This document shows, piece after piece, positions 23,048-61,592 of a stretch of DNA of 64,000 nucleotides; position 1 is the stretch's first letter, and the number at the start of each line of letters is the position of its first letter. The notes below the pieces were generated by a model. That model ran no database searches, was not told the DNA's origin, and saw nothing but the letters and a program-made list of their open reading frames with translations. This DNA comes from Populus alba (taxonomy: Eukaryota; Streptophyta; Magnoliopsida; Malpighiales; Salicaceae), in assembly GCF_005239225.2 (NCBI RefSeq), contig NC_133288.1, positions 16,932,169 to 16,996,168 of the forward strand. The letters run 5' to 3'. The position numbers and the translations under genes were made by a program.

Positions 23048-23052
23048 ATATT
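23048..23052. repeat. Target-site duplication of copy A, left (ATATT)
   Basis: ATATT directly precedes the TG of the left LTR and is repeated exactly at 34916-34920 after the CA of the right LTR. Confidence 0.9.
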
Positions 23053-24479
23053 TGATTAGTACTTAAAAGTGCATGTTTATCAAGGTTTTATATCATCATT
23101 TTGCACTTGAAGTATCAATAACTCCTTAACTAAAGCATGTTTTATAATAACAAGTTTGATATTATAAGATACCTTAATTTATGGTAAATGCTCATTTTAA
23201 ATGCAGGACTATCACATAAATAAAAGGATTGATTGATGAGTTTAAGCATTGAAAGTTAAAGGACAAAGAGATGGCCAAACTTAGAAAAGAGATGTCGGTG
23301 CAGTCCAAACCGGAACATTGCTCGGTAATTGGATCATATCTGGAGCTCTAGATCTCGGATTTAGGTCCATTTTATATGGAGGGAAAGGTAAAACATAGGC
23401 CTACAACTTTCATTTGGACACCAAGATCTAAGAAGGCTGTTTTCAAGTTCAAATTATAGGAACAACGAAGAAGTCCGAAGCTGTCCTGCAGCCTAGACAC
23501 TATTTAGTGTTCAACCCATATCTTGAGTTCTAGAAGTCCAAATGACCTCATCTTTTTTTTATTGGAAAGCTGAGACAATTTCCTAGAACATTCCTAAGGA
23601 TTCTGGGAAAATTATGATGTTAGCAATGACGTCTTGTTCAGACAAGAAGATAAGGATTGTCACCAAGTCAAGATGTGGCCACCCACTCATCAATTAGTCA
23701 ACAAATCAATAGTTCCAAATTTTGGCCTATAAAAGGAGGCACTTACCATGTATTGAGGCATCTTGGTTTCCAGATCAAGATCATGCTCTTGCTTTCTCTC
23801 TTTGTATTGCTTATGTTTTGCTTTTATTAATATCAAGTTTATGCACTTCATTTCCTTTCCTTTACTTAGTTAACTTCTTTCTCATTTATGTTCTTATCTT
23901 GTTCATCTATGTTTCTTTCTTTCATTATGTTTAGCTAAGTTAATTATGTCAAGGTGAAAAGGGTACACTAATGGTGTAAGAATAAGTATAATATAAACTT
24001 AACATGGACCTTAACGTTGGATACTAACATGTTTTATATTTGTTATCTTGTTCACTTTTAATACTTTGCTTGTTAAATTGTTAATCTAGATTTATGTTGT
24101 ATAACACTTGGTACAATAAATACTTGGTACTTTCATAGCCCATACTGTATGGTATAACCGACACCTAAGCTATGAAAGAAACTTGATTTGTTGTTAACAT
24201 AAGTTATAATCATGAATGCCTGCCAACATTTACAAGTATTAGCTTTATTCGAATAAGATAACTAATGTAATCACGTTAACAATTTATAATCTGATTGGAA
24301 CCTCCTTTATGTGTGGTTTTCCAATTGAGTAATAAGAGTTTATACTATACTTGTTTGAAGTACCATTAGTGGATCCTCTAACCTTGACATTTATTTTTAT
24401 CGTTGTTTAATCCTTACATTAATCTTTCAAATCACAGTTCTCATTAATTTCTTCCTTCTCTTCTTTATTATTATTGTTG

Positions 24480-24520
<41 letters not shown>

Positions 24521-24783
24521 TGTTCATAAACTCAGTATATAGGCTGGAAACCTGTGACCCGATCTTTTAGATCATTCTCAGGTATACCAACGCCACATAC
24601 TGAGTATTATTATTATTATTACTATTACTAGTACTACTATTGTTATTATTATTGTTATTGTTGTGTTGTTATTTATAATTTATACAATTAACCTCTCTGT
24701 GGTTCGACCCCGGTCTTGCCGGGTTATTTATTACTTCGACACTCCTGCACTTGGAAAAAGACATCAAGCTTTTGGTCGTGTCA
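23053..24783 (+). repeat. Left LTR of copy A
   Basis: 1731 bp, starting TGATTAGTAC and ending GGTCGTGTCA. It contains a TATA box, (TTA)n microsatellites near 24470-24520 and 24605-24660, and a short hairpin CCCGGTCTTGCCGGG near 24709-24723. Its partner is 33168-34915. Open frames inside it are incidental. Confidence 0.92.
23729..23735 (+). promoter_or_regulatory. TATA box in the left LTR of copy A
   Basis: TATAAAA in the context GGCCTATAAAAGGAGGC. It is conserved at 33845-33851 in the right LTR and, inverted, in both LTRs of copy B. It is the likely promoter for the genomic transcript. Confidence 0.7.
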
Positions 24784-24789
24784 AGCTTT

Positions 24790-24807
24790 TGGCGCCGTTG
24801 CCGGGGA
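24790..24807 (+). promoter_or_regulatory. Primer-binding site (tRNA-Asp type)
   Basis: TGGCGCCGTTGCCGGGGA lies six bases inside the left LTR. It is complementary to the 3' end of plant tRNA-Asp, the primer commonly used by Athila-type elements. The same 18 bases occur inverted at 59838-59855 in copy B. Confidence 0.85.
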
Positions 24808-25015
24808 GGTAAGTTCTTGTATAAATTATAATATTTAATTTATTTTCTCTTTTCACTTTTCATTTTATCTAACTTTTGTTTCCTTTGTTTTGTTTTGTTT
24901 CTTTTTCTTCTATTTTCTTTTCTTGCTTTTATTCTCTTCTTACACGTGCATGAGAGTTTGGTCAGGTACATTAAGTGGTCGACTTTGTAGGGTATCCTCA
25001 TCATTTTCAGAAAAT

Positions 25016-28000
25016 ATGGCCGAAGAAGATAATCAATCGCTTCATAATGAGAATAATGAGAATAACCGTATGAGAACACTTAGAGACCATATGAATCCCA
25101 CAAGAACAAGTGCACCCTCATGCATAGTTTTCCCTCCTGATGCATCTCATTTTAATTTTAAGCCAGGCATTATTCAACTTCTACCTTCTTTTCATGGTTT
25201 AGACCTAGAAAATCCATACTTGCATTTAAAGGAATTTGAGGAGGTCTGTAATACGTATAATGACTCAAATTGTAGCATGAACACCATTTGATTAAAGCTT
25301 TTTCCTTTTTCATTAAAAGATAAAGCTAAATCATGGCTACAAAATTTGAGACCAGGATCCATTCGTGCTTGGGATGATATGCAACAACAATTTTTAAAGA
25401 AGTTTTTTCCATCTCACAGAACAAATTCTTTCAAAAGACAAATCATCACTTTCACTCAAAAACCAGGAGAAACATTTTACCAATGTTGGGATAGGTATCG
25501 AGATTTGCTTAATACTTGCCCACATCATGGTTTTGAAACATGGAGATTGGTTTCACATTTTTATGAAGGTTTAACACCTAGAGATAGGCAAATGGTTGAA
25601 TTGATGTGCAATGGAACTTTCGAAGATAAAAACCCTAATGAAGCAATGGAGTACCTAGACTTGCTAGCCGAAAATGCTCAAAATTGGGACACCACAGGTA
25701 CTTATGAGGCACCAAGTAAAACACAACCTCATACATCTAGTGGAGGTATGCACAACCTTAGGGAAGATCATGACCTCCAAGCCAAGTTTGCATCTTTAGC
25801 TAGAAAAGTCGAAGCACTTGAATTGAAAAAAAGTGGTCAATTAAAATCTGTTCAAGACATTGTGTGTCAAATCTGTGAAACCAATGAACATTCAACAAAT
25901 GATTGTCCAAATTTGCCTTCTTTTAAGGAATGCCTCCATGAACAAGCCCATGCTTTAAACAGTTTCCAAAGACCCAACCATAACCCATACTCGCAAACAT
26001 ACAATCCTGGTTGGAGAAATCACCCAAATTTCAGTTGGAAGAGTGACAACAATAATACACAAACTTCACAGCCACCGTTTCAAGCACACCATAATTTCCA
26101 AAATTCTCATGGATATGCACCTCCTTATGCTCCACCTCCTAGAAGAAATTTTAAGGAAACATTGCATGCATTCATTGAAAAGCAGGAGACAATCAACACT
26201 CAACTTGCTCAAAGTATGACCGATTTTAAAGATGATCTTGGAAAATTAACATCTGCTCTCAGTTTCCAAGAGAAAGGTAAGTTTCCTTCTCAACCACAAC
26301 AAAATCCAAAGGGGCAATACAATGCAAATGCAAGTGGTTCTGGAAGCCAACACATGGATCAAGTCAAATCAGTCATCACTCTTCGTAGTGGTAAGGTTAT
26401 TGAAAAACCCATTCTTGAACCTTGTGAGAAAGATGATGAGTCTATCTCTGAGGGTAAGGAAGGGGTTGAACCTGAACATTGCAAAGAAAAAACTGATTCC
26501 CCGCCAGCACTTCCATTTCCTCATGCCATGACCAAACAAAGGAAAGTCAATCACAACTCTGAAATCTTTGAAATTTTCAAACAGGTAAGGATCAATATAC
26601 CTTTGTTGGATGCTATTAAACAAGTTCCTTCCTATGCTAAATTTTTGAAAGATTTGTGCACTGTGAAGAGAAAATTGAATGTGAAAAAGAAAGCCTTTTT
26701 AGCCGAACAAGTAAGTGCCATTCTTCAGAACAATAATGCTTTGAAATATAAAGACCCTGGTTGTCCTACAATTTCTTGCTTTATTGGAGAACATAAAATT
26801 GAAAGAGCCTTACTTGATCTTGGAGCTAGTGTGAATTTACTTCCATATTCAGTCTTTCAAAGTCTCAATCTAGGTGAGTTAAAACCAACCTCTGTAACTC
26901 TTTTACTTGCTGATAGATCTGTAAAAGTGCCTAGAGGAATAGTTGAGGATGTGTTAGTACAAGTTGATAAATTCATTTACCCTGTAGATTTTGTTGTCTT
27001 TGATACACAACCTGTTGAAGCATGTAATTCAATTCCAGTCATTTTAGGACGTCCATTTCTTGCCACTTCTAATGCATTGATTAATTATAGGAATGGACTG
27101 ATGAAGCTATCATTTGGAAACATGACATTGGAGATGAATATTTTCAACATTTACAAGCAACCTAGAGATGATAATGATTTACAGGAAGTGGACTTTATTG
27201 AAAATATAGTTCATGATCAATTTCAAACCACTTCCAGTGAAACTGAGATTGATGAATCTGATGATTTGCAAATGGTCTACTTTCAGGAATCAAAGACATG
27301 CAATTGCAGACCATAAATTGAAGAATTGCCACCACGATCAATTGAGCCCATACCTTCAAGTGTTCAACCACCAAAACCTGAATTGAAGCCGTTACCATAT
27401 AATCTCAAATACTCATTTTTGGGAGAAAATGAAACTTTTCCGGTAATAATCTCTTCCAAACTTAATGCGCATCAAGAAGGTAAGTTATTATAGACTCTAA
27501 AAATGCACAAAAATGCATTAGGATGGACCATAGCTGACATAAAAGGAATTAGCCTTTTGATTTGCACACACAAGATTTATTTGGAGGAAAATGCTAAACC
27601 CTCTAGAGAAATGCAACGAAGGCTTAATCCTAATATGAAAGAAGTAGTGAAAAATGAAGTCATTAAGCTTCTAGATAATGGAATCATTTATCCTATTTCT
27701 GACAGCAAATGGGTAAGTCCTACCCAAGTTGTACCCAAAAAGTCTGGAGTCACTGTGATAACGAATGAGAAAAATGAGTTAATTCCAACTAGGACTGTTA
27801 CTGGTTGGCGCATGTGCATTGACTATAGGAAACTTAATTCAATGACTAGAAAAGATCATTTCCCTTTACCTTTCATGGACCAAATCCTAGAAAGAGTTGC
27901 AGGTCATGAATTTTATTGTTTCCTAGATGGCTATTCAAGTTACAATCAAATTGAAATTGCATTGGAAGATCAAGAGAAGACTACTTTCACATGTCCATTT

Positions 28001-30277
28001 GGTACTTTTGCATATCGAAGGATGCCTTTTGGATTATGTAATGCACCAGCCACGTTTCAAAGATGCATGCTTAGCATATTCAGTGATATGGTTGAACATT
28101 TTCTTGAAATTTTTATGGATGATTTTTCTGTTTTTGGTGATTCATTTGATGATTGTTTGACTAACTTAGAAAAGGTTTTGAGCAGGTGTGAAGAGAAGAA
28201 TCTTGTACTGAATTGAGAAAAATGTCACTTTATGGTAACAAACGGCATTGTACTTGGTCACATTGTTTCATCGAAAGGAATTGAGGTTGACAAATCTAAA
28301 ATCAAGTTAATTGCCAACTTACCAACACCAAAATCTGTTAAAGATGTTAGATCATTCTTAGGACATGCTGGTTTTTACAGAAGGTTCATCAAAGATTTTA
28401 GTGTAATATCTAAGCCCTTGAGTAACCTTCTAACAAAGGATAATAATTTTGAATGGAATGAACATTGTGAAGAAGCCTTTGTTAAACTTAAAAACTTGCT
28501 TACTTCTGCTCCTGTCATTCAACCTCCTGATTGGTCATTACCTTTTGAAATAATGTGTGACGCTATTGATTATGCCGTGGGTGCTGTCTTGGGATAAAGA
28601 AAAGATAAGAAACCTTATGTGATTTACTATGCAAGTAAAACTTTAAATAGTGCTCAAATGAATTACACTACCACTAAAAAAGAATTACTTGCAGTAGTGT
28701 TTGCATGTGACAAGTTCAGATCTTATCTTGTTGGCTCACCTGTTGTTGTTTTTAGTGATCATGCAGCATTGAAATATCTTCTCTCTAAGAAAGATTCTAA
28801 GGCTAGATTGGTGTGGTGGATTTTGTTACTTCAAGAATTTGATATCACAATCAAAGACAAGAAAGGCACAAAAAATGTTATCGCGGATCATTTGTCAAGA
28901 TTGACAACCGATTCAAGATCTGACATTACACCAATCGATGACTACTTTCCTGATGAATCTTTATTTTCTGTCTCTACGATGCCTTGGTTTGCTAATATTG
29001 TTAATTTTCTTGTTTCAGGACAATTGCCAGCTCATTGGAGTACCCAAGACAAAAGAAAGTTCTTGAACGAAGTGAAGAACTTTTATTGGGATGACCCTTA
29101 TTTATTCAAATATTGTCCTGATCAAATATTTCGAAGATGCATTCCTGACAATAAGGTAAGTAGTGTCATTAAATTTTGTCATTCTGAGGCATGTGGGGGT
29201 CATTTCTCATCAAGAAAGACAACTGCAAAAATCTTACAAAGTGGATTTTATTGGCCCACCATGTTCAAAGACTCACATGCATTCTGCAAGACTTGTGAAA
29301 ATTATCAAAAGTTGGGATCTATTTCAAAACGTCACATGATGCCTTTAAATCCTATTCTTGTCATTGAGATCTTTGACTGTTGGGGTATAGATTTCATGGG
29401 TCCATTTCCTCCATCATTTGGTTTCGTGTACATATTAGTCGCAGTAGATTATGTTTCAAAATGGATAGAGGCAATTCCAAGTCGAAACAATGATCACAAA
29501 ACAGTGATAAAGTTTTTGAAAGACAATATTTTGAGTCGATTTGGAATTCCTCGAGCCATAATAAGTGATGGTGGAACACATTTCTGCAACAAACCATTTG
29601 CTTCTTTAACGAAGAAATATGGAATCACACACAAAGTTGCCACCCCTTATCACCCTCAGACAAGTGGACAAGTAGAGCTTGCTAATAGGGAGATCAAACA
29701 AATCTTGGAGAAAACGGTGAACCCTAATCGGAAAGACTGGTCTTTAAGACTTAATGATGCACTTTGGGCTTATCGAACTGCATATAAAACATCATTAGGT
29801 ATGTCACCTTATAGACTAGTCTATGGAAAACCTTGTCACTTGCCTGTGGAAATTGAACATAAAGCTTATTGGGCTATTAAAGCTTTCAATTCAAACATTG
29901 ATGATGCTAGTCAGCTGCGAAAATTGCAAATAAATGAGCTTGAGGAAATTAGAAATGATGCATATGACAATTCAAGAATTCATAAAGCAAGAATCAAAGA
30001 GTTTCATGACAAGAAAATACTGAGAAAAACATTCAATGTTGGTCAAAAAGTCTTGCTTTATAATTCTCGACTCCATTTATTTCCTGGAAAACTAAGATCA
30101 AGATGGAGCGGTCCTTTTATTGTGAAACATGTGTATCCATATGGGGCCTATGATATTGAGAATCCAAAGAATGGCAATGTTTTCAAGGTAAATGGGCATC
30201 GGTTGAAAGTTTATTTTGACAATTTTTCAGTTGAAAATGACTCTATTGAATTGAGTGATCCTGTATATAAAGATTGA
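25016..30277 (+). pseudogene. gag-pol polyprotein of copy A, five premature stops
   Basis: One reading frame of 1754 codons encodes the capsid precursor and replication enzymes. Gag lies at about 25016-26600, with a capsid-like segment followed by a CQICETNEHSTNDC zinc knuckle near 25869. The protease has LLDLGASVNLLPYSVF near 26812. RT lies at about 27640-28500, with the catalytic MDD at about 28114. RNase H follows at about 28540-28900. Integrase has an HH-CC-like N terminus (29150-29310), then a core with [22 protein letters not shown] and [19 protein letters not shown], so D, D and E are all present. Five in-frame stops (25289 TGA, 27314 TAA, 27491 TAG, 28213 TGA, 28595 TAA) interrupt it. 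Copy B has CGA, CAA, CAG, TGG and CAA at the same five places. No frameshift is present. An alternative upstream ATG at 24950 is in the same frame. Confidence 0.92.
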
Positions 30278-30487
30278 TTCTTTTTCTCACATTGTTTTGT
30301 GTTTGTTTTGGTGTATCTTTTGTTTTGCTAGTTTCTCTCACCCCGGTCAAATGGCGGATAACGGTACTCCGTGACTCTTAAGTCGGTTCTTTCAGTTTCC
30401 CATGATAACTGATATCTATGTATATAATTGTGCAACTCTCTACTCTTTCTTCTTTCTTTGAATCTCCCATCCAATTCTCATTTAAAA
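30278..30487 (+). other. Leader between pol and ORF-X
   Basis: These 210 bases are without coding sequence, followed by ATG at 30488. A spliced subgenomic RNA would be the expected way to express the downstream frames, as for env-like frames of other Athila elements. I see no convincing acceptor that I can assign. Confidence 0.4.
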
Positions 30488-31126
30488 ATGGACACCACTC
30501 TTGAATAATTGAAAAAGTATTTTCCCACTCTGCCTCAGAATGCGATTACAAAAATTTACCGTGCTAGGTGTGAAAGATTGAGGTTGTTAATGAACCATGG
30601 AATTCCTGAAGATATTTGTTGGCTGATTGAAGCAAAGGTCCGATTATCAGGTGAGTCCTCCAATTCTTTCATTTCACACATGCCTGGAACAGGTAAAAGC
30701 ACTTTTGCAAAGAAACGTCGTGCAAAACGACTAAAAGTCTGTCACAGATGTGCCAGATGGACTTGTAATGTGACATGTCGTTCTTTAGGAATGGTATCTG
30801 TAAACCGTGAAGATAAAATACAATTCATTAAGGATGGCTTGAGTAAGGGGTCTTTAGATAATCTTTTATTGACCCTTGAGACGCATCCTAGTGGAGATGT
30901 GCATCATGTAATTCATGATTTATGGCCACAATTCCATAAAAAACATGATCGACTTAGTCTTGGGAATCTGACTAAAAAAGACCCTGTTTGCCAGTTTTTA
31001 AGAAAACTGGATGGGAAGCCTATCCCCGACCCATATAGGGCGTTTAAGCTGTTCTTGGACGTAAAACCAAGGGAAGATGTGAGCCACAATCACAACTACC
31101 TGTACATACATGCTTTGTTAAAATAA
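30488..31126 (+). pseudogene. ORF-X of copy A: cysteine-rich, basic protein resembling flexivirus nucleic-acid-binding proteins
   Basis: This is a 212-codon frame with a single early stop, a TAA at codon 7 (30506-30508) that may be a former CAA. It is otherwise open to TAA at 31124. Residues 66-83 read PGTGKSTFAKKRRAKRLK, a P-loop-like glycine patch running into a basic cluster. CHRC follows at 85-88, then C93 and C97, giving CxxC-x4-C-x3-C. A GMVSVN...IQFIKDG segment comes at 101-117. Glycine-rich GxSxxA, RRA basic run, CHRC, paired cysteines and then a short hydrophobic FI..G is the order I associate with the viral nucleic-acid-binding (cysteine-rich) proteins of carlaviruses and relatives. 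The C-terminal half (118-212) is unrecognised. It is not an env-like frame: no signal peptide or transmembrane segment is visible. The viral resemblance is recalled, not searched. A host zinc-binding protein is the main alternative. Confidence 0.6.
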
Positions 31127-31274
31127 ATAAATAAAGAGAGAGAGTGTTAGACTACAGCTGGCCTACATGTAGGTGGTATGATTGCATTTTCACTTTTTCA
31201 TTTATAAATTCTTCTCTTCCTTACCTTCATTTCTACTCATCCCATACATTCATCAAATATAGAAGTGTGTAGAA

Positions 31275-31928
31275 ATGGCAGGTTCCTCAAGTCATCACAT
31301 AAGAAATATTTGTGTTTTCGGTGGATCCAGCCCTAGGAAAGAAAAAGAGTTTTTAGAATTAGCAAATCATCTTGGTCAAGTACTAGGTGAGAGAAAGATT
31401 CATTTAGTGTATGGGGGAGGTAGTTTTGGGTTAATGGGAGGTGTTTCAATGGTTGCATTTTTAGGAGGCAGTCAAGTTTTGGGGGTTGTCCCCAAAGCTT
31501 TAGCAAATGGGGACATCATTGGAAAAACAATTGGAGAGGAACTACAGGTCCCAACAATGTTTGACCGACTGAATACCATGTTTAACCATGCTGATGCCTT
31601 CATTGCCTTACCAGGTGGTCTGGGCACATTGGAAGAGATCTTTCATATTTCATCTTGGGCCCAACTGCACATTCACCATAAACCTATAGGTTTGTTAAAT
31701 GTTAATGGTTTTTATGATAAGTTGCTATCTTTCCTTGATCAAGCTGTGGAACAGGAATTTCTAACATCTTCGGCATGACAAATCATAATCTCTGCTGCTA
31801 CTGCTGAACAATTGATTGACCAACTACAATCTTTCATCCCTGTCATTGATCCTTGCATGAGTCGCCTAGATTGGTCAGCTAAGGAAAGCCGTAAAAAGCT
31901 TAGATTAGATTTGAGCCTTCATCTGTGA
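31275..31928 (+). pseudogene. LOG-like cytokinin-activating enzyme carried by copy A, one premature stop
   Basis: This is an intronless 217-codon frame of the LOG family (lysine decarboxylase-like fold). Family members release active cytokinin bases from cytokinin riboside 5'-monophosphates. The start is the ATG at 31275. VFGGSSP (residues 14-20) and VYGGGSFGLMGG (45-56) form the nucleotide-binding region. ALPGGLGTLEE (111-121) is the PGGxGTxxE signature with its catalytic glutamate. Arg98 sits where the family has a conserved arginine, but the adjacent lysine of the usual RK pair is leucine. GLLNVNGFYDKLLSFLDQAV follows. A TGA at codon 168 (31776-31778) cuts off the last 50 residues; copy B has CGA there. 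Host LOG genes normally contain several introns, so a continuous frame inside a retroelement suggests capture of a spliced transcript. The frame ends in DLSLHL and TGA at 31926. Confidence 0.9.
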
Positions 31929-33155
31929 AACCTTGTGTCTTTTGTGTTATTAATAGCATATTATTTTATTTTGTTACTTCTTATATTTGTTTAAGTGTGT
32001 TTCAGGTTTGTCATTGTTCGCTGTTTCAGGTGATGTCTTCTATACTCTATCTTTCTACCTTAGGACATTGAGGACAATGTCTCGTTTTGGTTGGGGGGAG
32101 AGGGTAGTAGTTTTAAAAAAAAAAAAAAACTAACCAACTAACTGTTGTTGTTTTTAAAAAACCATTTGGCAAAACTGTTATTACTAGGATGACAGAGTAA
32201 AGAGGAATTATTCTTGAGACGCATCGTAGTAAATTTTTTCTAATATTTGCAATATTCATAACAAGGCCTATTAGAATACTTCTTGAAATATTCAGGTTTA
32301 CAAACTCTCGCATTGTTATCACTTGATTCTGCTCATATACTCATTTAACAAGTATTATTAAACCTTCATTTTCACACACACACTTTAACATATGATTGTG
32401 GGTTGCACATTGGATTATTACATTATTTATGTTCTTTTGTTAAAGGTAACAACTAAGGGAAAGGGATAGTATATAATTTGCAAAAAAAAAAAAAAAATGA
32501 TAATATTGATGATAATAAAAACGTAGATAAGTTTGGTTTCGTAGCCTCCTTAACCTAAGCAATTAAGCCCGAAGGGGTGTTTTAACACCTAATACCCTAA
32601 AGTCAACTAACTTGGGAGCTATTGGCCCAAAGCTTGTTACATGGGTTAAGGAGAAAAGCTTAAGGGAATCAAACATTGCACTATCTACGTATCAGTATCT
32701 ACAACCCGAGTTGTTAAGCTCGTAGGGGTGTCTCAACACCTAATGCCCTAAGACCAACTGGTCTGGGAGTCATTAGCCTAAAACTCGTTACATGGGTTAA
32801 AGATACATTATGTTGTATGTGTATATAAATAAAAATAAAAATAAAAAAAAGAGAAGAAAAAAAAAGTAATAATAATAATAATCCCAACTCAAGGAAGTTC
32901 ACCTTAAACATTTGAACATAATATTATTTTCTTCCAACAAAAGCCCCATCATCTATGTTTTCATATATTGAGCACATAAAAAGAAGGTTTATTAATATCT
33001 TGTTTAAGAAGTATGAAGCAGTAATATAAATTTAATGAGAGTTTGTTTATCTGGATAGATTAATGGAAGTTGAATGATGAATGCCTTGCTTTGTGAAACT
33101 TGCAAATTGTTTCTCTATTTTAACGCTTTAGATTAGTAGGGACTAGTAATAAGCT
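31929..33155 (+). other. 3' untranslated region of copy A with two G-rich tracts and hairpin repeats
   Basis: This is about 1.2 kb of non-coding sequence. GGTTGGGGGGAGAGGG at about 32089-32104 resembles a second, internal polypurine tract. Two units of an imperfect 151-bp repeat contain hairpins at 32576-32589 and 32727-32740. Poly-A-like and AAT runs occur near 32480-32500 and 32830-32880. Copy B conserves the same arrangement (53230-53520 and 53920). Confidence 0.7.
32558..32805 (+). repeat. Two 151-bp repeats with hairpins in the 3' region of copy A
   Basis: Each unit has AAG-CCC/CTC followed by GGGGTGT..., ACACCTAATxCCCTAA and TTACATGGGTTAA. The first carries the near-perfect hairpin GGTGTTTTAACACC, the second GGTGTCTCAACACC with a mismatched loop. 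Confidence 0.7.
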
Positions 33156-33167
33156 GGTTGGGGGGTG
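33156..33167 (+). promoter_or_regulatory. Polypurine tract of copy A
   Basis: GGTTGGGGGGTG immediately precedes the right LTR, the position of the plus-strand primer. The same G-run occurs, as its complement, at 52882-52895 in copy B. Confidence 0.65.
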
Positions 33168-34599
33168 TGATTAGTACTTAAAAGTGCATGTTTATCAAGG
33201 TTTTATATCATCATTTTGCACTTGAAGTATCAATAACTCCTTAACTAAAACATGTTTTATAATAACAAGTTTGATATTATAAGATACCTTAATTTATGGT
33301 AAATTCTCATTTTAAATGCAGGACTATCACATAAATAAAAGGATTTATTGATGAGTTTAAGCATTGAAAGTTAAAGGACAAAGAGATGGCCAAACTTAGA
33401 AAAGAGATGTCGGTGCAGTCCAAACCGGAACATTGCTCGGTAATTGGATCATATGTGGAGCTCTAGATCTCGGATTTAGGTCTATTTTATATGGATGGAA
33501 AGGTAAAACATAGGCCTACAACTTTCATTTGGACACCAAGATCTAAGAAGGCCGTTTTCAAGTCCAAATTATAGGAACAACGAAGAAGTCCGAAGCTGTC
33601 CTGCAGCCTAGACACTATTTAGTGTTCAGCCCATATCTTGAGTTCTAGAAGTCCAAATGACCTCATCTTTTTTTTTTGTTGGAAAGCTGAGACAATTTCC
33701 TAGAACATTCCTAAGGATTCTGGGCAAATTATGATGTTAGCAATGACGTCTTGTTCAGACAAGAAGATAAGGATTGTCACCAAGTCAAGATGTGGCTACC
33801 CACTCATCAATTAGTCAACAAATCAATAGTTCCAAATTTTGGCCTATAAAAGGAGGCACTTACCATGTATTGAGGCATCTTGGTTTCCAGATCAAGATCA
33901 TGCTCTTGCTTTCTCTCTTTGTATTGCTTATGTTTTGCTTTCATTAATATCAAGTTTATGCACTTCATTTCCTTTCCTTTACTTAGTTAACTTCTTTCTC
34001 ATTTATGTTCTTATCTTGTTCATCTATGTTTCTTTCTTTCATTATGTTTAGCTAAGTTAATTATGTCAAAGTGAAAAGGATACACTAATGGTGTAAGAAT
34101 AAGTATAATATAAACTTAACATGGACCTTAACGTTGGATACTAACATGTTTTATATTTGTTATCTTGTTCACTTTTAATACTTTGCTTGTTAAATGGTTA
34201 ATCTAGATTTATATATGTTGTATAACACTTGGTACAATAAATACTTGGTACTTTGATAGCCTATACTGTATGGTATAACCGACACCTGAGCTATGAAAGG
34301 AACTTGATTTGTTGTTAACATAAGTTATAATCATGAATGCCTGCCAACATTTACAAGTATTAGCTTTATTCGAATAAGATAACTAATGTAATCATGTTAA
34401 TAATTTATAATCTGATTGGAACCTCCTTTATGTGTGGTTTCCAATCGAGTAATAAGAGTTTATATTATACTTGTTTGAAATACCATTAGTGGATCCTCTA
34501 ACCTTGACATTTATTTTTATCGTTGTTTAATCCTTACATTAATCTTTCAACTCAAAGTTCTCATTAATTTCTTCCTTCTCTTCTTTATTATTGTTGTTG

Positions 34600-34633
<34 letters not shown>

Positions 34634-34915
34634 CTGTTCATAAACTCAGTATATAGGCTGAAAACCTGTGACCCGATCTTTTAGATCATTCTCAGGTATA
34701 ACAACGCCACGTACTGAGTATTATTATTATTATTATTATTATTACTATTACTAGTACTAATATTGTTATTATTATTGTTATTGTTGTTATTGTTGTGTTG
34801 TTATTTATAATTTATACAATTAACCTCTCTGTGGTTCGACCCCGGTCTTGCCGGGTTATTTATTACTTCGACACTCCTACATTTGGGAAAAGACATCAAG
34901 TTTTTGGTCGTGTCA
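33168..34915 (+). repeat. Right LTR of copy A
   Basis: 1748 bp, colinear with the left LTR (23053-24783), differing by scattered substitutions and by microsatellite length, mainly in the (TTA)n tracts near 34590 and 34720. It ends TGTCA and is followed by the ATATT duplication. Confidence 0.92.
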
Positions 34916-34920
34916 ATATT
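34916..34920. repeat. Target-site duplication of copy A, right (ATATT)
   Basis: Exact repeat of 23048-23052. Confidence 0.9.
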
Positions 34921-48655: not shown

Positions 48656-48659
48656 GTAT

Positions 48660-49685: not shown

Positions 49686-49689
49686 TCAA

Positions 49690-51149: not shown

Positions 51150-52881
51150 TGACACAACCAAAAGCTTGATGTCTTCTCCCAAGTGCAGGAGTGTCGAAGT
51201 AATAAATAACCCGGCAAGACCGGGGTCGAACCACAGAGAGGTTAATTGTATAAATTATAAATAACAACACAACAATAACAATAATAACGATAATAATAAC
51301 AATAGTAGTACTAGTAATAGTAATAATAATAATAATACTCAGTATGTGGTGTTGTTATACTTGAGAATGATCTAAAAGATCGGGTCACAGGTTTCCAGCC
51401 TATATACTGAGTTTATGAATAGATAATAATAATAATAATAACAACAACAACAACAATAATAATAATAATAAAGAAGAGAATGAAGAAATTAATAAGAACT
51501 TTGAGTTGAAAGATTAATGTAAGGATTAAACAACGATAAAAATAAATGTCAAGGTTAGAGGATCCACTAATGGTACTTCAAACAAGTATAGTATAAACTC
51601 TTATTACTCAATTGGAAACCACACATAAAGGAGGTTCCAATCAGATTATAAATTGTTAACATGATTACATTAGTTATCTTATTCGAATAAAGCTAATACT
51701 TGTAAATGTTGGGAGGCATTCATGATTATAACTTATGTTAACAACAAATCAAGTTCCTTTCATAGCTCAGGTGTCGGTTATACCATACAGTATGGGCTAT
51801 GGAAGTACCAAGTATTTGTTGTACCAAGTGTTATACAACATAAATCTAGATTAACCATTTAACAAGCAAAGTATTAAAAGTGAACAAGATAACAAATATA
51901 ATACATGTTAGTATCCAACGTTAAGGTCCATGTTAAGTTTATATTATACTTATTCTTACACCATTAGTGTACCCTTTTCACCTTGACATAATTAACTTAG
52001 CTAAACATAATGAAAGAAAGAAACATAGATGAACAAGATAAGAACATAAATGAGAAAGAAGTTAACTAAGTAAAGGAAAGGAAATTAAGTGCATAAACTT
52101 GATATTAATGAAAGCAAAACATAAGCAATACAAAGAGAGAAAGCAAGAGCATGATCTTGATCTGGAAACCAAGATGCCTCAATACATGGTAAGTGCCTCC
52201 TTTTATAGGCCAAAATTTGAAACTATTGATTTGTTAATTAATTGATGAGTGGGTGGCCACATCTTGACTTGGTGACAATCTTTATCTTCTTGTCTGAACA
52301 AGATGTCATTGCTAACATCATAATTTGCCCAGAATCCTTAGGAATGTTCTAGGAAATTGTCTCAGGTTTCCAACAAAAAATAGATGAGGTCATTTGGACT
52401 TCTAGAACTCAAGATATGGGCTGAACACTAAATAGTGTCTGGGCTGCAGGACAGCTTCGGACTTCTTCGTTGTTCCTTCAGTTTGGACTTCAAAACGGCC
52501 TTTTTAAATCTTGGGCTCTGCATGAAAGTTGTAGGCCTTTGTCTTACCTTTCCATCCATATAAAATGAACCTAAATCCGAGATCTAGAGCTCCAGATATG
52601 ATCCAATTACCGAGCAATGTTCCGGTTTGGACTGCACCGGCATCTCTTTTCTAAGTTTGGCCATCTCTTTGTCCTTTCACTTTCAATACTTAAACTCATC
52701 AATCAATCCTTTTATTTATGTGATAGGCCTGCATTTAAGATAAGCATTTACCATAAATTAAGGTATCTTATAGTATCAAACTTGTTATATAAAACATGCT
52801 TTAGTTAAGAAGTTATTGATACTTCAAGTGCAAAATGATGATATAAAACCTTGATAAACATGCACTTTTAAGTACTAATCA
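51150..52881 (-). repeat. 3' LTR of copy B
   Basis: 1732 bp. Inverted copy of the copy A LTR (TGACAC...AATCA as read on the + strand), with the TATA box complement near 52203-52209. Confidence 0.92.
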
Positions 52882-54092
52882 CATCCCCCAACCAGCTTAT
52901 TACTAGTCCCTAGTAATCTAAAGTGTTAAAATAGAGAAACAATTTGCAAGTATCACAAAGCAAGGCATTCATCATTCAACTTCTATTAATCTATCCAAAT
53001 AAACAAACTCTCATTAAATTTATATTACTGCTTCATACTTCTTAAACAAGATATTAATAAACCTTCTTTTTATGTGCTCAATATATGAAAACATAGATGA
53101 TGGGGCTTTTGTTGGAAGAAAACAATATTATGTTCAAATGTTTAAGGTGAACTTCCTTGGGTTGGGATTATTATTATTATTACTTTTTTTTTATTCTCTT
53201 TTATTTATTTATTTATTTATATACACATACAACTTAAAACACAATGTATCTTTAACCCATGTAACGAGTTTTAGGCTAATGACTCCCAAACCAGTTGGTC
53301 TTAGGGCATTAGGTGTTGAGACACCCCTACGAGCTTAACAACTCGGGTTGCAGATACTGATACATAGATAGTGCAATGTTTGATTCCCTTAAGCTTTTCT
53401 CCTTAACCCATGTAACAAGCTTTAGGCCAATAGCTCCCAAGTCAGTTGACTTTAGGGTATTAGGTGTTAAAACACCCCTTCGGGCTTAATTGCTTAGGTT
53501 AGGGAGGCTACAAAACCAAACTTATCTATGTTTTTATTATCATCATTTTTTTTAATTTTTTTTTTTGCAAATTATATACTATCCCTTACCCTTAGTTGTT
53601 ACCTTCAACAAAAGAACATAAATAATGTAATAATCCAATGTGCAACCCAAAATCATATGTTAAAGTGTGTGTGAAAATGTAGGTTTAATAATACTTGTTA
53701 AATGAGTATAGGAGCAGAATGAAGTGATAACAATGCGAGAGTTTGTAAACCTAAATATTTCAAGAAGTATTCTAATAGGCCTTGTTATGAATAGTGCGTC
53801 TCAAGAATAATTCCTCTTTACTCTGCCATCCTAGTAATAACAGTTTTGCCAAATGATTTTTAAAAAACAAAAACAGTTAGTTGGTTAGTTTTTTTTTTTT
53901 AAAAAAAAACTACTACCCTGTCCCCCCAACCAAAATGAGACATTGTCCTCAATGTCCTAAGGTAGAAAGATAGAGTATAGAAGACATCACCTGAAACAGC
54001 GAACAATGACAAACCTGAAACACACTTAAACAAATATAAGAAGTAACAAAACAAAATAATATGCTATTAATAAAACCAAAAGACACAAGGTT
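52882..54092 (-). other. 3' region of copy B with polypurine tract and hairpin repeats
   Basis: Begins with the complement of the polypurine tract (CATCCCCCAACC at 52882-52893). It contains the same two hairpin repeats as copy A (near 53310-53330 and 53460-53480) and the second G-rich tract (CCCCCCAACC near 53923). Confidence 0.7.
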
Positions 54093-54745
54093 TCACAGAT
54101 GAAGGCTCAAATCTAATCTAAGCTTTTTACGGCTTTCCTTAGCTGACCAATCTAGGCGACTCATGCAAGGATCAATGACAGGGATGAAAGATTGTAGTTG
54201 GTCAATCAATTGTTCAGCAGTAGCAGCAGAGATTATGATTTGTCGTGCTGAAGATGTTAGAAATTCCTGTTCCACAGCTTGATCAAGGAAAGACAACAAC
54301 TTATCATAAAAACCATTAACATTTAACAAACCTATAGGTTTATGGTGAATGTGCAGTTGGGCCCAAGATGAAATATGAAAGATCTCTTCCAATGTGCCTA
54401 GACCACCTGGTAAGGCAATGAAGGCATCAACATGGCTAAACATGGAATTCAGTCGATCAGACATTGTTAGGACCTGTAATTCATCTCCAATTGTTTTTCC
54501 AATGATGTCTCCATTTGCTAAAGCTTTGGGGACAACCCCCAAAACTTGACTGCCTCCTAAAAATGCAGCCATTGACACACCTCCCATTAACCCAAGGCTG
54601 CCTCCCCCATACACTAAATGAATATTTCTCTCAGCTAGTACCCGACCAAGATGATTTGCTGATTCTAAAACTCTTTTTCTTTCCCAGGGCTGGATCCACC
54701 AAAAACACAAATATTTCTTATGTGATGACTTGAGGAACCTGCCAT
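54093..54745 (-). pseudogene. LOG-like cytokinin-activating enzyme carried by copy B, frameshifted
   Basis: Counterpart of 31275-31928 in copy A, 653 nt against 654. A single T is missing near 54667, shifting the frame at about codon 27. Downstream the frame is open to the same C-terminus, with VYGGGSLGLMGGVS and ALPGGLGTLEE intact. Arg is CGA at the position where copy A has TGA. The ATG is at 54743-54745. The lesion differs from that of copy A, so the two copies were inactivated independently, and their common ancestor probably had an open LOG frame. Confidence 0.9.
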
Positions 54746-54889
54746 TTCTACACACTTCTATATTTGATGAATGTATGGGATGAGTAGAAATGAAGGGAAG
54801 GAAGAGAAGAATTTATAGATGAAAAAGTGAAAATGCAATCATACCACCTATATGTAGGCCAGCTGTAGTCTCACATTCTCTTTATTTAT

Positions 54890-55460
54890 TTATTTATTTT
54901 GACAAAGCATGTATGTACAGGTAGTTGTGATTGTGGCTCACATCTTCCCTTGGTTTTACGTCCAAGAACGGCTTAAACGCCCTCTATGGGTCGGGGATAG
55001 GCTTCCCATCCAGTTTTCTTAAAAACTGGCAAGCATGGTCTTTTTTAGTCAGATTCCCAAGACTAAGTTGATCATGTTCTTTATGGAATTGTGGCCATAA
55101 ATCATGAATTACACGATGCACATCTCCACTAGGATGCGTCTCAAGGGTCAACAAAAGATTATCTAAAGACCCCTTACTCAGGCCATCCTTAATGAATTGT
55201 ATTTTATCTTCACGGTTTACAGATACCATTCCTAAAGAACGACATGTCGCATTACAAGTCCATCTGGCACATCTGTGACAGACTTTCAGTCGTTTTGCAC
55301 GACGTTTCTTTGCAAAAGTGCTTTTACCTGTTCCAGGCATGTGTGAAATGAAAGAATTGGAGGACTCACCTGATAATCGGACCTTTGCTTCAATCAGCCA
55401 ACAAATATCTTCAGGAATTCCATGGTTCATTAACAACCTCAATCTTTCACACCTCATTGT
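54890..55460 (-). pseudogene. ORF-X of copy B, 5' end deleted
   Basis: Counterpart of ORF-X in copy A. The first 27 or so codons are lost in the integrase deletion, and the frame now begins inside the joined sequence. The basic run and the CHRC...C...C cysteines are fully conserved (near 55258-55330). A TAG after KPIPDP (near 54984) replaces the tyrosine codon of copy A and removes the last 25 or so codons. A fused frame from an ATG at 55517 reads through the junction, but its first 20 residues are out-of-frame pol sequence. Confidence 0.75.
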
Positions 55461-58400
55461 CAGGAATGCATCTTTGAAATATTTGATCAGGACAATATTT
55501 GAATAAATAAGGGTCATCCCAATAAAAGTTCTTCACTTCATTCAAGAACTTTCTTTTGTCTTAGGTACTCCAATGAGCTGGCAATTGTCCTGAAACAAGA
55601 AAATTAACAATATTAGCAAACCAAGGCATCATAGAAACGGAAAATAAAGATTCATCGGGAAAGTAGTCATCAATTGGTTTGATGTCAGATTTCAAATTTG
55701 TTGTCAATCTTGACAAATGATCTGCAACAACATTTTCGGTGCCTTTCTTGTCTTTGATTGTGATATCAAATTCTTGAAGTAACAAAATCCATCGCACCAA
55801 TCTAGCCTTATAATCTTTCTTAGAAAGAAGATATTTCAATGTTGCATGATCACTAAAAACAACAACAGGTGAGCCAACAAGATAAGATCTGAATTTATCA
55901 CAAGCAAATACTACTGCAAGTAATTCTTTTTCAGTGGTGGTGTAATTCATTTGAGCACTCTTTAAAGTTTTACTTGCATAGTAAATCACATAAGGTTTCT
56001 TATCTTTTCTTTGTCCCAAGACAGCACCCACGACATAATCACTAGCGTCACATATTATTTCAAAAGGTAATGACCAATCAAGAGGTTCAATGATAGGAGC
56101 AGAAGTAAGCAAGTTTTTAAGTTTAACAAAGGCTTCTTCACAATGTTCAGTCCATTCAAAAATATTATCCTTTGTTAGAAGGTTACTCAAGGGCTTAGAT
56201 ATTACACTAAAATATTTGATGAACCTTCTGTAAAAACCAGCATGTCCTAAGAATGATCTAACATCTTTAACAGATTTTGGTGTTGGTAAGTTGGTAATTA
56301 ACTCGATTTTAGATTTGTCAACCTCAATTCCTTTCGATGAAACAATGTGACCAAGTACAATGTCGTTTGTTACCATAAAGTGATATTTTTCCCAATTCAG
56401 TACAAGATTCTTTTCTTCACACCTGCTCAAAACCTTTTCTAAGTTAGTCAAACAATCATCAAATGAATCACCAAAAACAGAAAAATCATCCATAAAAATT
56501 TCAAGAAAACGTTCAACCATATCACTGAATATGCTAAGCATGCATCTTTGAAACGTGGCTGGTGCATTACATAATCCAAAAGGCATCCTTCGATATGCAA
56601 AAGTACCAAATGGACATGTGAAAGAAGTCTTCTCTTGATCTTCCAATGTAATTTCAATTTGATTGTAACCTGAATAACCATCTAGGAAACAGTAAAATTC
56701 ATGACCTGCAACTCTTTCTAGGATTTGGTCCATGAAAGGTAAAGGGAAATGATCTTTTCTAGTCATTGAATTAAGTTTCCTATAGTCAATGCACATGCGC
56801 CAACCAGTAATAATCCTAGTTGGAATTAACTCATTTTTCTCATTTGTTATCACAGTGACTCCAGACTTTTTGGGTACAACTTGTGTAGAACTTACCCATT
56901 TGCTGTCAGAAATAGGATAAATGATTCCATTATCTAGAAACTTAATGACTTCATTTTTCACTACTCTTTCATATTAGGATTAAGCCTTCGTTGCATTTCT
57001 CTAGAGGGTTTAGCATTTTCCTCCAAATAAATCCTGTGTGTGCAAATCAAAGGGCTAATTCCTTTTATGTCAGTTATGGTCCATCCTAATGCATTTTTAT
57101 GCATTTTCAGAGTCTGTAATAACTTACCTTCTTGATGTGCATTAAGTTTGGAAGACATTATTACCGGAAAAGTTTCATTTTCTCCTAAATATGAGTATTT
57201 GAGATTAAATGGTAACGGCTTCAATTCAGGTTTTGGTGGTTGAACACTTGAAGGTATGGGCTCAATTGATCGTGGTGGCAATTCTTTAATTTGTGGTCTC
57301 CAATTGCATGCCTTTGATTCCTGAAAGTAGACCATTTGCAAATCATCAGATTCATCAATCTCAGTTGCACTAGAAGTGGTTTGAAATTGATCATGAACTA
57401 ATTTTTCAATAAATTCCACTTTCTGTAAATCATTATCATCTCCAGGTTGCTTGTAAATGTTGAAAATATTCATCTCCAATGTCATGTTTCCAAATGATAG
57501 CTTCATCAGTCCATTCCTACAATTAATCAATGCATTAGAAGTGGCAAGAAATGGACGTCCTAAAATGACAGGAATTGAATTACATGCTTCAACAAGTTGT
57601 GTATCCAAGACAACAAAATCTATTCCTCAACTATTCCTCTAGGCACTTTTACAGATCTATCGGCAAGTAAAAGGGTAAATGAATTTATCAACTTGTACTA
57701 ACACATCCTCAACTATTCCTCTAGGCACTTTTACAGATCTATCGGCAAGTAAAAGAGTTACAGAGGTTGGTTTTAACTCACCTAGATTGAGACTTTGAAA
57801 GACTGAATATGGAAGTAAATTCACATTAGCTCCAAGATCAAGTAAGGCTTTTTCAATTTTATGTTCTCCAATAAAGCAAGAAATTGTAGGACAACCAGGG
57901 TCTTTATATTTCAAAGCATTATTGTTTTGAAGAATAACACTTACTTGTTCGGCTAAAAAGGCTTTCTTTTTCACATTCAGTTTTCTCTTCACAGTGCATA
58001 TATCTTTCAAAAATTTAGCATAGGAAGGAACTTGTTAATAGCATCCAACAAAGGTATATTGATCCTTACCTGTTTGAAAGTTTCAAAGATTTCAGAGTTG
58101 TGATTGACTTTCCTTTGTTTGGTCATGGCATGAGGAAATGGAAGTGCTGGCGGGGAATCAACCTTCTCTTTGCAATGTTCAGGTTCAACCCATTCCTTAC
58201 CCTCAGAGATAGACTTATCATCTTTCTCACAAGGTTCAAGAATGGGTTTTTCAATAACCTTACCACTACGAAGAGTGATGATTGATTTGACTTGATCCAT
58301 GTGTTGGCTTCCAGAACTACTCGCATTTGCATTGTATTGCCCTTTTGGATTTTGCTGTGGTTGAGATGGAAACTTACCTTTCTCTTGGAAACTGAGAGCA

Positions 58401-59629
58401 GATGTTAATTTTGCAAGAGCATCTTTAAAATCTGTCATGCTTTGAGCAAGTTGAGTGTTGATTGTCTCCTGCTTTTCAATGAATGCATGCAATGTTTCCT
58501 TAAAATTTCTTCTAGGAGGTGGAGCATAAGGAGGTGCATATCCATGAGAATTTTGAAAATTATGGTGTGTTTGAAACGGTGGTTGTGAAGTTTGTGCATT
58601 GTTGCTATCACTCTTCCAACTGAAATTTGGGTGATTTCTCCAACCAGGGTTATACGTTTGGGAGTATGGGTTATGGTTGGGTCTTTGGAAACTGTTTAAA
58701 GCATGGGCTTGTTCATGGAGGCATTCCTTAAAAGAAGGCAAAGTTGGACAATCATTTGTTGAATGTTCATTGGTTTCACAGATTTGACACACAATGTTTT
58801 GAATAGATTTGAATTGGCCACTTTTTTTCAATTCAAGTGCTTCGACTTTTCTAGCTAAAGATGCAAACTTGGCTTGGAGGTCATGATCTTCCCTAAGGTT
58901 GTGCATACCTCCACTAGATGTATGAGGTTGAGTTTTACTTGGTGCCTCATAAGTACCTGTGGTGTCCCAATTTTGAGCATTTTCGGCTAGCAAGTCTAGG
59001 TACTCCATTGCTTCATTAGGGTCTTTATCTTCGAAGGTTCCATTGCACATCAATTCAATCATTTGCCTATCTCTAGGTGTTAAACCTTCATAAAAATGTG
59101 AAACCAATCTCCATGTTTCAAAACCATGATGAGGGCAAGTATTAAGCAAATCTCGATACTTATCCCAACATTGGTAAAATGTTTCTCCTGGTTTTTGAGT
59201 GAAAGTGATAATTTGTTTTTTGAAAGAGTTTGTTCTGTGAGATGGAAAAAACTTCTTTAAAAATTATTGTTGCATTTCATCCCAAGCACGAATGGATCCT
59301 GGTCTCAAATTTTATAGCCATGTTTTAGCTTTATCTTTTAATGAAAAAGAAAAAAGCTTTAATCGAATGGTGTTCATGCTACAATTTGAGTCATTATAGG
59401 TATTACAGACCTCCTCAAGTTCCCTTAAATGCAAGTATGGATTTTCTAGGTCTAAACCGTGAAAAGAAGGTAAAAGTTGAATATTGCCTGGCTTAAAATT
59501 AAAATGAGATGCATCAGGAGGGAAAACTATGCATGAGGGTGCACTTGTTCTTGTGGGATTCATGTGGTCTCTAAGTGTTCTCATACGGTTATTCTCATTA
59601 TGAAGCGATTGATTATCTTCTTCGGCCAT
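55461..59629 (-). pseudogene. gag-pol of copy B, integrase missing
   Basis: Gag starts at ATG 59629, with an upstream in-frame ATG at 59695 as in copy A. The zinc knuckle CQICETNEHSTNDC is near 58780. The protease has LLDLGANVNLLPYSVF near 57820, with the family Ser/Thr-Gly context changed. RT and RNase H run from 56961 to about 55730, with an intact [14 protein letters not shown] and [14 protein letters not shown]. Stops at about 59311, 59260 and 55561 are CAA-to-TAA changes relative to copy A. Single-base deletions near 58034 and 56975 shift the frame. The integrase is deleted: after [15 protein letters not shown] and DQIFQRCIPDN-like sequence the DNA jumps into ORF-X. Confidence 0.9.
57600..57765 (-). 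repeat. Local tandem duplication in the copy B protease region
   Basis: About 48 bases beginning CCTCAACTATTCCTCTAGGC occur at about 57627-57672 and again at about 57712-57758. Copy A has this segment once. The duplication interrupts the protease-RT linker. Confidence 0.75.
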
Positions 59630-59837
59630 ATTTTCTGAAAATGATGAGGATACCCTACAAAGTCCACCACTTAATGTACGTGACCAAACTCTCATGCACG
59701 TGAAAGAAGAGAATAAAAGGAAGAAAAGAAAAGAAAAGAAAAAGAAACAAAATAAAACAAAGAAAACAAAAGTTAGATAGAATGAAAAGTGAAAAGAGAA
59801 AATAAATTAAAAATTATAATTTATACAAGAATTTACC

Positions 59838-59855
59838 TCCCCGGCAACGGCGCCA
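59838..59855 (-). promoter_or_regulatory. Primer-binding site of copy B (tRNA-Asp type)
   Basis: Inverted copy of the site in copy A (TCCCCGGCAACGGCGCCA on the + strand), six bases from the LTR. Confidence 0.85.
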
Positions 59856-59861
59856 AAAACT

Positions 59862-60139
59862 TGACACGACCAAAAGCTTGATGTCTTCTCCCAAGTGCAG
59901 GAGTGTCGAAGTAATAAATAACCCGGCAAGACCGGGATCGAACCACAGAGAGGTTAATTGTATAAATTATTAATAACAACACAACAATAACAATAATAAC
60001 GATAATAATAACAATAGTAGTACTAGTAATAGTAATAATAATAATAATACTCAGTACGTGGTGTTGTTATACCTGAGAATGATCTAAAAGATCAGGTCAC
60101 AGGTTTCCAGCCTATATACTGTGTTTATGAACATATAAT

Positions 60140-60178
<39 letters not shown>

Positions 60179-61592
60179 AATAAAGAAGAGAAGGAAGAAA
60201 TTAATAAGAACTTTGAGTTGAAAGATTAATGTAAGGATTAAACAACGATAAAAATAAATGTCAAGGTTAGAGGATCCACTAATGGTACTTCAAACAAGTA
60301 TAGTATAAACTCTTATTACTCAATTGGAAACCACACATAAAGGAGGTTCCAATCAGATTATAAATTGTTAACATGATTACATTAGTTATCTTATTCGAAT
60401 AAAGCTAATACTTGTAAATGTTGGGAGGCATTCATGATTATAACTTATGTTAACAACAAATCAAGTTCCTTTCATAGCTCAGGTGTCGGTTATACCATAC
60501 AGTATGGGCTATGGAAGTACCAAGTATTTGTTGTACCAAGTGTTATACAACATAAATCTAGATTAACCATTTAACAAGCAAAGTATTAAAAGTGAACAAG
60601 ATAACAAATATAATACATGTTAGTATCCAACGTTAAGGTCCATGTTAAGTTTATATTATACTTATTCTTACACCATTAGTGTACCCTTTTCACCTTGACA
60701 TAATTAACTTAGCTAAACATAATGAAAGAAAGAAACATAGATGAACAAGATAAGAACATAAATGAGAAAGAAGTTAACTAAGTAAAGGAAAGGAAATTAA
60801 GTGCATAAACTTGATATTAATGAAAGCAAAACATAAGCAATACAAAGAGAGAAAGCAAGAGCATGATCTTGATCTGGAAACCAAGATGCCTCAATACATG
60901 GTAAGTGCCTCCTTTTATAGGCCAAAATTTGGAACTATTGATTTGTTAATTAATTGATGAGTGGGTGGCCACATCTTGACTTGGTGACAATCTTTATCTT
61001 CTTGTCTGAACAAGACGTCATTGCTAACATCATAATTTGCCCAGAATCCTCAGGAATGTTCTAGGAAATTGTCTCAGGTTTCCAACAAAAAAAAAATGAG
61101 GTCATTTGGACTTCTAGAACTCAAGATATGGGTTGAACACTAAATAGTGTCTGGGCTGCAGGACAGCTTCGGACTTCTTCGTTGTTCCTTCAGTTTGGAC
61201 TTCAAAACGGCCTTTTTAAATCTTGGGCTCCCATGAAAGTTGTAGGCCTTTGTCTTACCTTTCCATCCATATAAAATGGACCTAAATCCGAGATCTAGAG
61301 CTCCAGATATGATCCAATTACCGAGCAATGTTCCGGTTTGGACTGCACCGGCATCTCTTTTCTAAGTTTGGCCATCTCTTTGTCCTTTCACTTTCATTAC
61401 TTAAACTCATCAATCAATCCTTTTATTTATGTGATATGCCTGCATTTAAGATGAGCATTTACCATAAATTAAGGTATCTTATAGTATCAAACTTGTTATA
61501 TAAAACATGCTTTAATTAAGAAGTTATTGATACTTCAAGTGCAAAATGATGATATAAAACCTTGATAAACATGCACTTTTAAGTACTAATCA
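59862..61592 (-). repeat. 5' LTR of copy B
   Basis: 1731 bp, colinear with 51150-52881. A visible difference is an (AAC)n tract near 60137-60175 here against a mixed AAT/AAC tract near 51425-51470 in the other LTR. Confidence 0.92.

Follow-up and report, generated by a model that had tools for sequence, protein, structure and literature searches.

A Ty3/gypsy retrotransposon family of Populus alba carries a LOG-like gene with an altered nucleotide pocket beside a carlavirus-type zinc-finger gene

The window, the whole stretch of 64,000 nucleotides analysed here (C5:16932169-16996168 of the 416-Mb Populus alba genome), contains two related LTR retrotransposons, A and B, in opposite orientation. 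Their features were located by self-BLAST, boundary reading and Pfam (Table 1). A perfect five-base target-site duplication, ATATT, flanks A at 23048-23052 and 34916-34920, and B lies between perfect five-base CGCAC duplications. The K2P distance within the LTR pair is 0.0254 for A and 0.0170 for B (LTRs at 61592-59862 and 52881-51150). Because the target-site duplications differ, A and B are separate insertions, as the sequence-only reading had claimed, and its refuting case of a segmental duplication is ruled out. Self-BLAST further shows that approximately 1.4 kb of pol is absent from B. The stretch 41275-42614 matches both flanks of B (49994-51147 and 61598-61826, 86% and 73% alike) without interruption and is apparently an element-free paralogue of the B insertion site.

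The domain order reverse transcriptase, RNase H, integrase is present in A and fits the Athila lineage of Ty3/gypsy elements. A also has a G-rich polypurine tract, and its primer-binding site, TGGCGCCGTTGCCGGGGA, is what we take to be the complement of plant tRNA-Asp. Athila elements use a tRNA-Asp-type primer-binding site and carry an env-like ORF after pol. The Populus family shares with them the gag-pro-RT-RH-INT order and an LTR length of about 1.7 kb, and differs in what follows pol, where an NABP-like gene and a LOG-like gene take the place of the env-like ORF. The two frames scanned there with Pfam match only the NABP and LOG families and no env-like ORF, and for this reason we use the label Athila-like. 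No Chromo match was obtained in the five frames of A scanned by Pfam. The family is thus a non-chromoviral, Athila-like Ty3/gypsy family whose two accessory genes lie after pol and before the polypurine tract.

Table 1. Positions of retrotransposon features within the window
Feature	Position	Strand	Evidence
Element A, between target-site duplications	23053..34915	+	self-BLAST, boundary reading
5' LTR of A	23053..24783 (1731 bp)	+	self-BLAST, boundary reading
Primer-binding site of A	24790..24807	+	sequence read
gag-protease frame of A	25346..27316	+	PF03732 4.8e-13, PF13650 1.6e-5
pol of A (RT, RNase H, integrase), three frames	27503..30277	+	PF00078, PF17917, PF17921, PF00665
Carlavirus-CRP/NABP-like zinc-finger gene of A	30509..31126	+	PF05515 1.8e-6, PF01623 3.3e-6
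NABP-LOG interval, TATA-type word ~72 nt before LOG ATG, pyrimidine patch	31127..31274	+	
LOG-like gene of A, in-frame TGA at 31776-31778	31275..31928	+	Pfam, structure match, reading of frame
Basic tail and LxLxL end of A LOG frame with stop, 3' of TGA	31881..31928	+	
3' LTR of A	33168..34915 (1748 bp)	+	self-BLAST, boundary reading
Element B, between target-site duplications	51150..61592	-	self-BLAST, boundary reading
LOG-like gene of B, one-base deletion near codon 26	54093..54745	-	self-BLAST, reading of frame
NABP-like gene of B, N-terminal part lost with pol deletion	54984..55454	-	

The LOG-like frame of A matches PF03641 (E 4.9e-34) and PF18306 (9.8e-13) and contains PGGLGTLEE; its closest solved structure is AtLOG3 2a33 (E 1.2e-48). 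A frame with the PGGxGTxxE signature between pol and the right LTR had been reported from the letters alone and is confirmed by these matches. The claim that B carries the gene at the same place holds for the position and fails for the frames, as neither element encodes a whole LOG: in A the TGA is codon 168 and leaves an open part of 167 aa, and B is broken by its single-base deletion. Of 31 loci tried, 30 could be read, and 27 of these, which are related copies, have a TATA-type word and a pyrimidine patch ahead of the LOG ATG. Random 130-nt stretches drawn from 32000-33160 contain the same TATA-type words in 36% of cases. This frequency, together with the relatedness of the loci, makes the evidence for an internal promoter weak.

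The gene is a constituent of the family, as proposed, and confinement to two copies is ruled out. On either side of LOG, the best 30 LOG loci of the genome, with A among them, can all be aligned to element A, the upstream alignment covering only about 400 bp for L010, L013 and L027. These loci are ranked by protein match. A further sample was chosen on the non-coding stretch 31935-32480 alone (40 rows scored, first 20 after A). LOG sequence is present in 20/20 of these copies, in one as only its last 292 bases. The search for copies with an open frame that had been suggested gives 9 of these 20 open and 11 broken, compared to 26 open over 217 residues among the 30 protein-ranked loci. Stops lie inside 4 of 150 LOG matches in the genome search. 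The LOG query yielded 1664 and the non-coding query 1352 hits, which are candidates rather than verified copies; many family copies are 95% alike.

Host LOGs of Populus have introns, and the element gene was said to lack them. Each of the 19 host-type Populus LOG loci (L031-L049) gives only separate or partial matches to the element LOG; for eight loci (L039-L043, L045, L046, L048) the number of pieces is four to eight. Three element copies were run alongside, and two of them match without a break. The claim is therefore borne out.

The first accessory gene encodes a protein resembling the cysteine-rich proteins (CRPs) of carlaviruses and allexiviruses. Both Pfam matches pass the gathering cut-off, PF05515 (Viral_NABP) with 28.5 bits against 23 and PF01623 (Carla_C4) with 27.4 against 20.9. 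As in the viral proteins, a basic stretch precedes a four-Cys finger, and C85, C88, C93 and C97 are invariant in the 27 rows aligned. It differs from them in being encoded by a retrotransposon. Its relatives comprise 517 proteins, the best 120 of which include Populus, Xanthoceras and Acer records. The family frame starts at about 30488, where A has a stop, and A lacks the stop that the family usually has at 31034-31036; stops or a split match are found in 17 of 30 loci. In loci L001-L030, NABP usually ends with TAG or TAA after GKPIPDP, and the next ~28 codons are open and strongly conserved in frame (RAFKPFLDVKPREDVSHNHNYLYIHALSK). Acer P0272 and a further record, P0191, have no stop at that site. 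The end of NABP may undergo stop readthrough or contain a cis-acting RNA element. Viral proteins of this type are reported to suppress silencing. One of them, p12 of Chrysanthemum virus B, is described in the accessible part of PMC12172455 as a weak silencing suppressor and as a transcription factor that causes hyperplasia.

The AlphaFold model of the element LOG has a pLDDT of 87.8, with residues 203-212 below 50, and superimposes on AtLOG3 2a33 with TMt 0.95 and rmsd 1.0 (Foldseek). It thus shares with the host plant LOGs (LOG1/3/7/8; AtLOG3 2a33, AtLOG8 1ydh) the LOG/Rossmann fold, the PF03641 domain of type-I LOGs and PGGxGTxxE. The adenine/prenyl pocket of a type-I LOG (Lys100, His97, Glu125; CgLOG numbering from PMC4979012) is not retained in Populus-type sequences. 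All 81 host rows keep Met96, His97, Arg99, Lys100, the motif, Glu125 and Trp129, and the Glu122 equivalent is likewise invariant. At the position of Lys100, lysine occurs in 0/150 Populus-type sequences and Leu, Met, Ile or Val in 150/150. The Glu125 equivalent is His in 147/150 and Tyr or Gln in the remaining three, and the His97 equivalent is Ser, Phe, Tyr or Cys. The catalytic Arg (Arg99 equivalent) is kept in 144/150 and the last motif Glu (Glu122 equivalent) in 147/150. In the 34 other element rows, the catalytic Arg is present in 24 and replaced by Cys, Gln, Lys or Leu in 10; the Glu122 equivalent is kept in 33. Lys100 and the Glu125 equivalent are each found in 9/34, both only in nine Sapindaceae rows. 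The Citrus record P0357, with 79 cluster members, reads PGDLATFEA in place of PGGxGTxxE and has lost the last Glu, while its frame and an LDLTLRL tail are kept; in this lineage the tail may outlive the enzyme.

The sequence-only reading assumed a cytokinin-activating enzyme, so that the element would raise active cytokinin where it is transcribed. Fold, motif and the near-constant Arg and Glu of Populus-type sequences speak for this, as does the purifying selection described below, and since eight Xanthoceras rows keep Lys100, Arg99 and Glu125 together, an active enzyme is plausible there. On the other side stand the replaced Lys100 and Glu125 equivalents in Populus and in 25 of the 34 other element rows and the lost motif of P0357, changes that occur in none of the 81 host rows. 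In the accessible portion of PMC4979012, Lys100 counts as an AMP-site residue of CgLOG, and activity was almost abolished by alanine at crucial residues other than Ser19; this portion gives no result specific to Lys100. Loss of the catalytic Arg from part of the element clade further lowers our confidence in a working enzyme. The fold and signature of the earlier description stand, the term cytokinin-activating is doubtful, and we consider cytokinin production by the element unlikely.

Element-type LOGs are found outside Populus, among the matches listed, in Xanthoceras, Acer, Reevesia, Orobanche and Citrus records and in further contigs. The protein search used a padded query, which took the 217-residue Populus copies off the list, and it covers the best 120 of 2070 hits. 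Xanthoceras, Acer and Orobanche have gene models of this clade at 47-63% identity. In phylogenetic analysis, 32 element rows form one clade with support 100/98, apart from 21 host rows. In the tree of all 120 listed rows, one branch (SH-aLRT 96) splits 42 element from 81 host rows, with labels fixed beforehand from the alignment. The expectation was that such a tree would lead to the donor gene. No donor branch emerges from it. The element LOGs form their own clade, and the 19 host-type Populus loci listed reach at most 69% identity per exon to the element LOG; recent capture from a present Populus LOG is ruled out on these grounds.

Two Xanthoceras records (P0242 and P0244) carry gag-protease pieces (6.6e-15 and 5.6e-14), and one record each of Acer (P0272, 2.3e-55) and Orobanche (P0279, 1.4e-63) has NABP next to LOG; all these E-values come from two-sequence comparison. 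Among 12 non-Populus records searched for gag-protease and NABP, such pieces were present in four and absent from eight. At least for Populus, Xanthoceras, Acer and Orobanche, the LOGs of this clade hence reside in elements; we assume the same context for Reevesia, the Citrus record and the remaining element rows. In a set of viral contigs, in which records near the window's genome may be absent, neither LOG nor NABP has relatives. In the public models P0242, P0244, P0272 and P0279, which are entered as host proteins, LOG is fused to gag-protease or NABP; such gene models may conceal breaks in the underlying LOG frame.

We infer a single, ancient capture of a LOG mRNA. Alternatively, Athila-like lineages could have acquired LOG mRNAs on separate occasions, all from the same host LOG subfamily. 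Trees that nest the element LOGs inside host LOGs, near the vascular LOGs, are not rejected (p-AU 0.35), and such a subfamily could be missing from the 120 hits, as host proteins shorter than about 219 aa fell outside the length window of this third protein search. Against repeated capture, the element rows form a single well-supported clade, a C-terminal tail is common to Populus, Reevesia, Citrus and further element rows, NABP adjoins LOG in Populus, Acer and Orobanche, and none of the host-type Populus loci is close. Several captures are therefore improbable.

The tail ends in LxLxL, which is preceded by basic residues in most Populus copies and in 15 of 25 non-Sapindaceae rows. LxLxL lies within the last 15 residues of 62/68 Populus-type proteins, and near the end in 46/47 copies of one genomic set and 18/19 of the non-coding-selected ones. 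Of the 34 other element rows, 15 have it, all among the 25 rows outside the Sapindaceae (0/9 within). Ten of these 25 are without LxLxL or have degenerate versions (LDTILRL, DAFLSL, LDIDLNR). In contrast, 0/81 host rows have LxLxL at the tail. The motif is short, and shuffled tails gave a mean of 0.72 and a maximum of 5 rows with LxLxL in 2000 rounds. In the accessible text of PMC6479872, LxLxL is the plant EAR repression motif. The sequence suggests that the tail is EAR-like, with TOPLESS as a putative binding partner.

The tail could also be merely a nuclear address, with the LOG fold acting as a nucleotide enzyme or binder on a new substrate, e.g. N6-modified or damaged nucleotides in reverse transcription. 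It would fit that the motif and its last Glu are kept while the base-recognition residues have changed, and a precedent exists in the orchid gypsy elements that took up an RNA demethylase, according to the accessible sections of PMC9289625. The loss of the catalytic Arg in 10/34 non-Populus element rows and of the motif in the Citrus record is hard to reconcile with such an activity, and we regard this possibility as rather remote.

Selection on the LOG frame was assessed in three samples. The 30 protein-ranked loci (pN/pS 0.21 in 29) are biased to good frames and were set aside for this purpose. The second sample, ranked on 27 residues, comprises 51 loci (L050-L100), 22 of them open by our criteria and some with ends cut by the alignment; without five loci (four shorter than 600 nt, and L057), pN/pS outside the ranking window is 0.47 in 46 copies. 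The third, ranked on non-coding DNA, gives 0.44 in 19 copies (one below 600 nt dropped). Simulated neutral values of 0.71-0.82 assume less transition bias than the third sample has (ts/tv 4.95). As the simulation under-models this bias, we prefer an N/S test matched to the nucleotide spectrum of the singletons, from which a neutral ratio of 3.00 is expected.

In the combined 63 distinct copies, singletons show N/S 139/48 = 2.90, in contrast to 36/31 = 1.16 for variants in at least five copies (Fisher p 0.003); the copy-number cut-offs for shared variants were picked after the data had been seen, and a cut-off of at least three copies weakens the contrast (79/42, p 0.096). The second sample alone gives 135/45 for singletons and 31/29 for shared variants (p 0.001). 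In the 19 non-coding-selected copies by themselves the counts are 50/16 for singletons and 4/7 for variants in at least three copies (p 0.014). Seven stop variants are common to two or more copies. Codon models return omega 0.64-0.67, an average over many dead copies. The free model beats omega 1 by 78 log-likelihood units with kappa fixed at 2.5, part of which may reflect kappa, since the free fit has kappa of about 5.8 and the fixed value went with omega 1. For the 18 codons of the tail, pN/pS is 0.39 over the 46 copies and 0.77 within the 22 open ones.

Neutral singletons together with shared variants poor in replacements imply that copies decay neutrally after insertion and that the propagating lineages are constrained. 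This pattern indicates purifying selection on LOG in the lineages that kept transposing, and neutrality of the frame throughout the family, which had been named as a refuting outcome, does not hold. That LOG is a passenger without function which looks intact because the family is young is very unlikely: similar copies, broken frames in 11 of the 20 non-coding-selected copies, neutral singletons and the damaged NABP genes would agree with it, and the scarcity of replacements among shared variants and the diverged clade members in Xanthoceras, Acer and Orobanche, with motif and tail conserved, would not.

The reading we favour, at roughly even probability, is that the element LOG is a nuclear accessory protein that serves the element via its EAR-like tail, rather than a bulk activator of cytokinin. 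The protein keeps its fold and PGGxGTxxE, and it has lost the pocket Lys and Glu outside the Sapindaceae and, in some lineages, the catalytic Arg. After the single ancient capture that we propose, it would act in the nucleus. Recruitment of TOPLESS-type co-repressors by the tail is the most likely mode of action, perhaps combined with a changed capacity to bind or hydrolyse nucleotides. The gene may be expressed from its own promoter, for which the TATA-type word and pyrimidine patch are weak indications. The CRP-like protein would be a second host-manipulating factor, so that LOG and NABP may constitute a nuclear host-manipulating module. Only tentatively do we extend this to the proposal that for much of eudicot history a gypsy lineage carried a virus-type CRP and a LOG fold remade as a nuclear TOPLESS-recruiting factor. 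If this is true, the retrotransposon would act like an effector-bearing pathogen. EAR-type motifs are found in proteins of other foreign agents, namely the TOPLESS-binding effectors HaRxL21 and Jsi1, which are secreted by pathogens, as set out in the accessible parts of PMC7446885 and PMC8126959; for the element LOG, the motif alone is seen.

LOG domains inside gypsy LTR elements are already in print, so the idea of an element-borne LOG is not wholly new. In its accessible sections, PMC9289625 reports, in one sentence, a YgdH/LOG domain in LTR-element consensuses of Citrus sinensis and C. clementina, and of P. trichocarpa without filter, and places this in line with Steinbauerova et al. 2011; selection, the clade, NABP, the pocket and the tail go unmentioned in these sections. 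They also state that extra genes of plant gypsy elements are known, mostly without known domains. The orchid elements, with an m6A demethylase, resemble the present family in having a captured host enzyme and differ in enzyme and lineage. Our literature search found no other publication on LOG-carrying gypsy elements among its best matches (best 15 of 79 and 20 of 291). The kind is thus known, and the clade, the NABP partner, the altered pocket, the tail and the selection are new as far as this search reaches.

Here the extra ORF has a recognisable enzyme fold, is selected, is altered at host-invariant sites, and has a new tail and a virus-type partner, and the role of extra ORFs for a retrotransposon becomes testable by standard assays. 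In Populus, Acer, Xanthoceras and Orobanche, proteins of the clade are listed as ordinary predicted proteins and can inflate LOG family counts.

Elsewhere in the window, self-BLAST shows a tandem array at 48219-49688 with units of about 120-125 bp that are roughly 70-88% alike, and frames at 15371-16819 resemble a CACTA-type transposase, as judged by eye.
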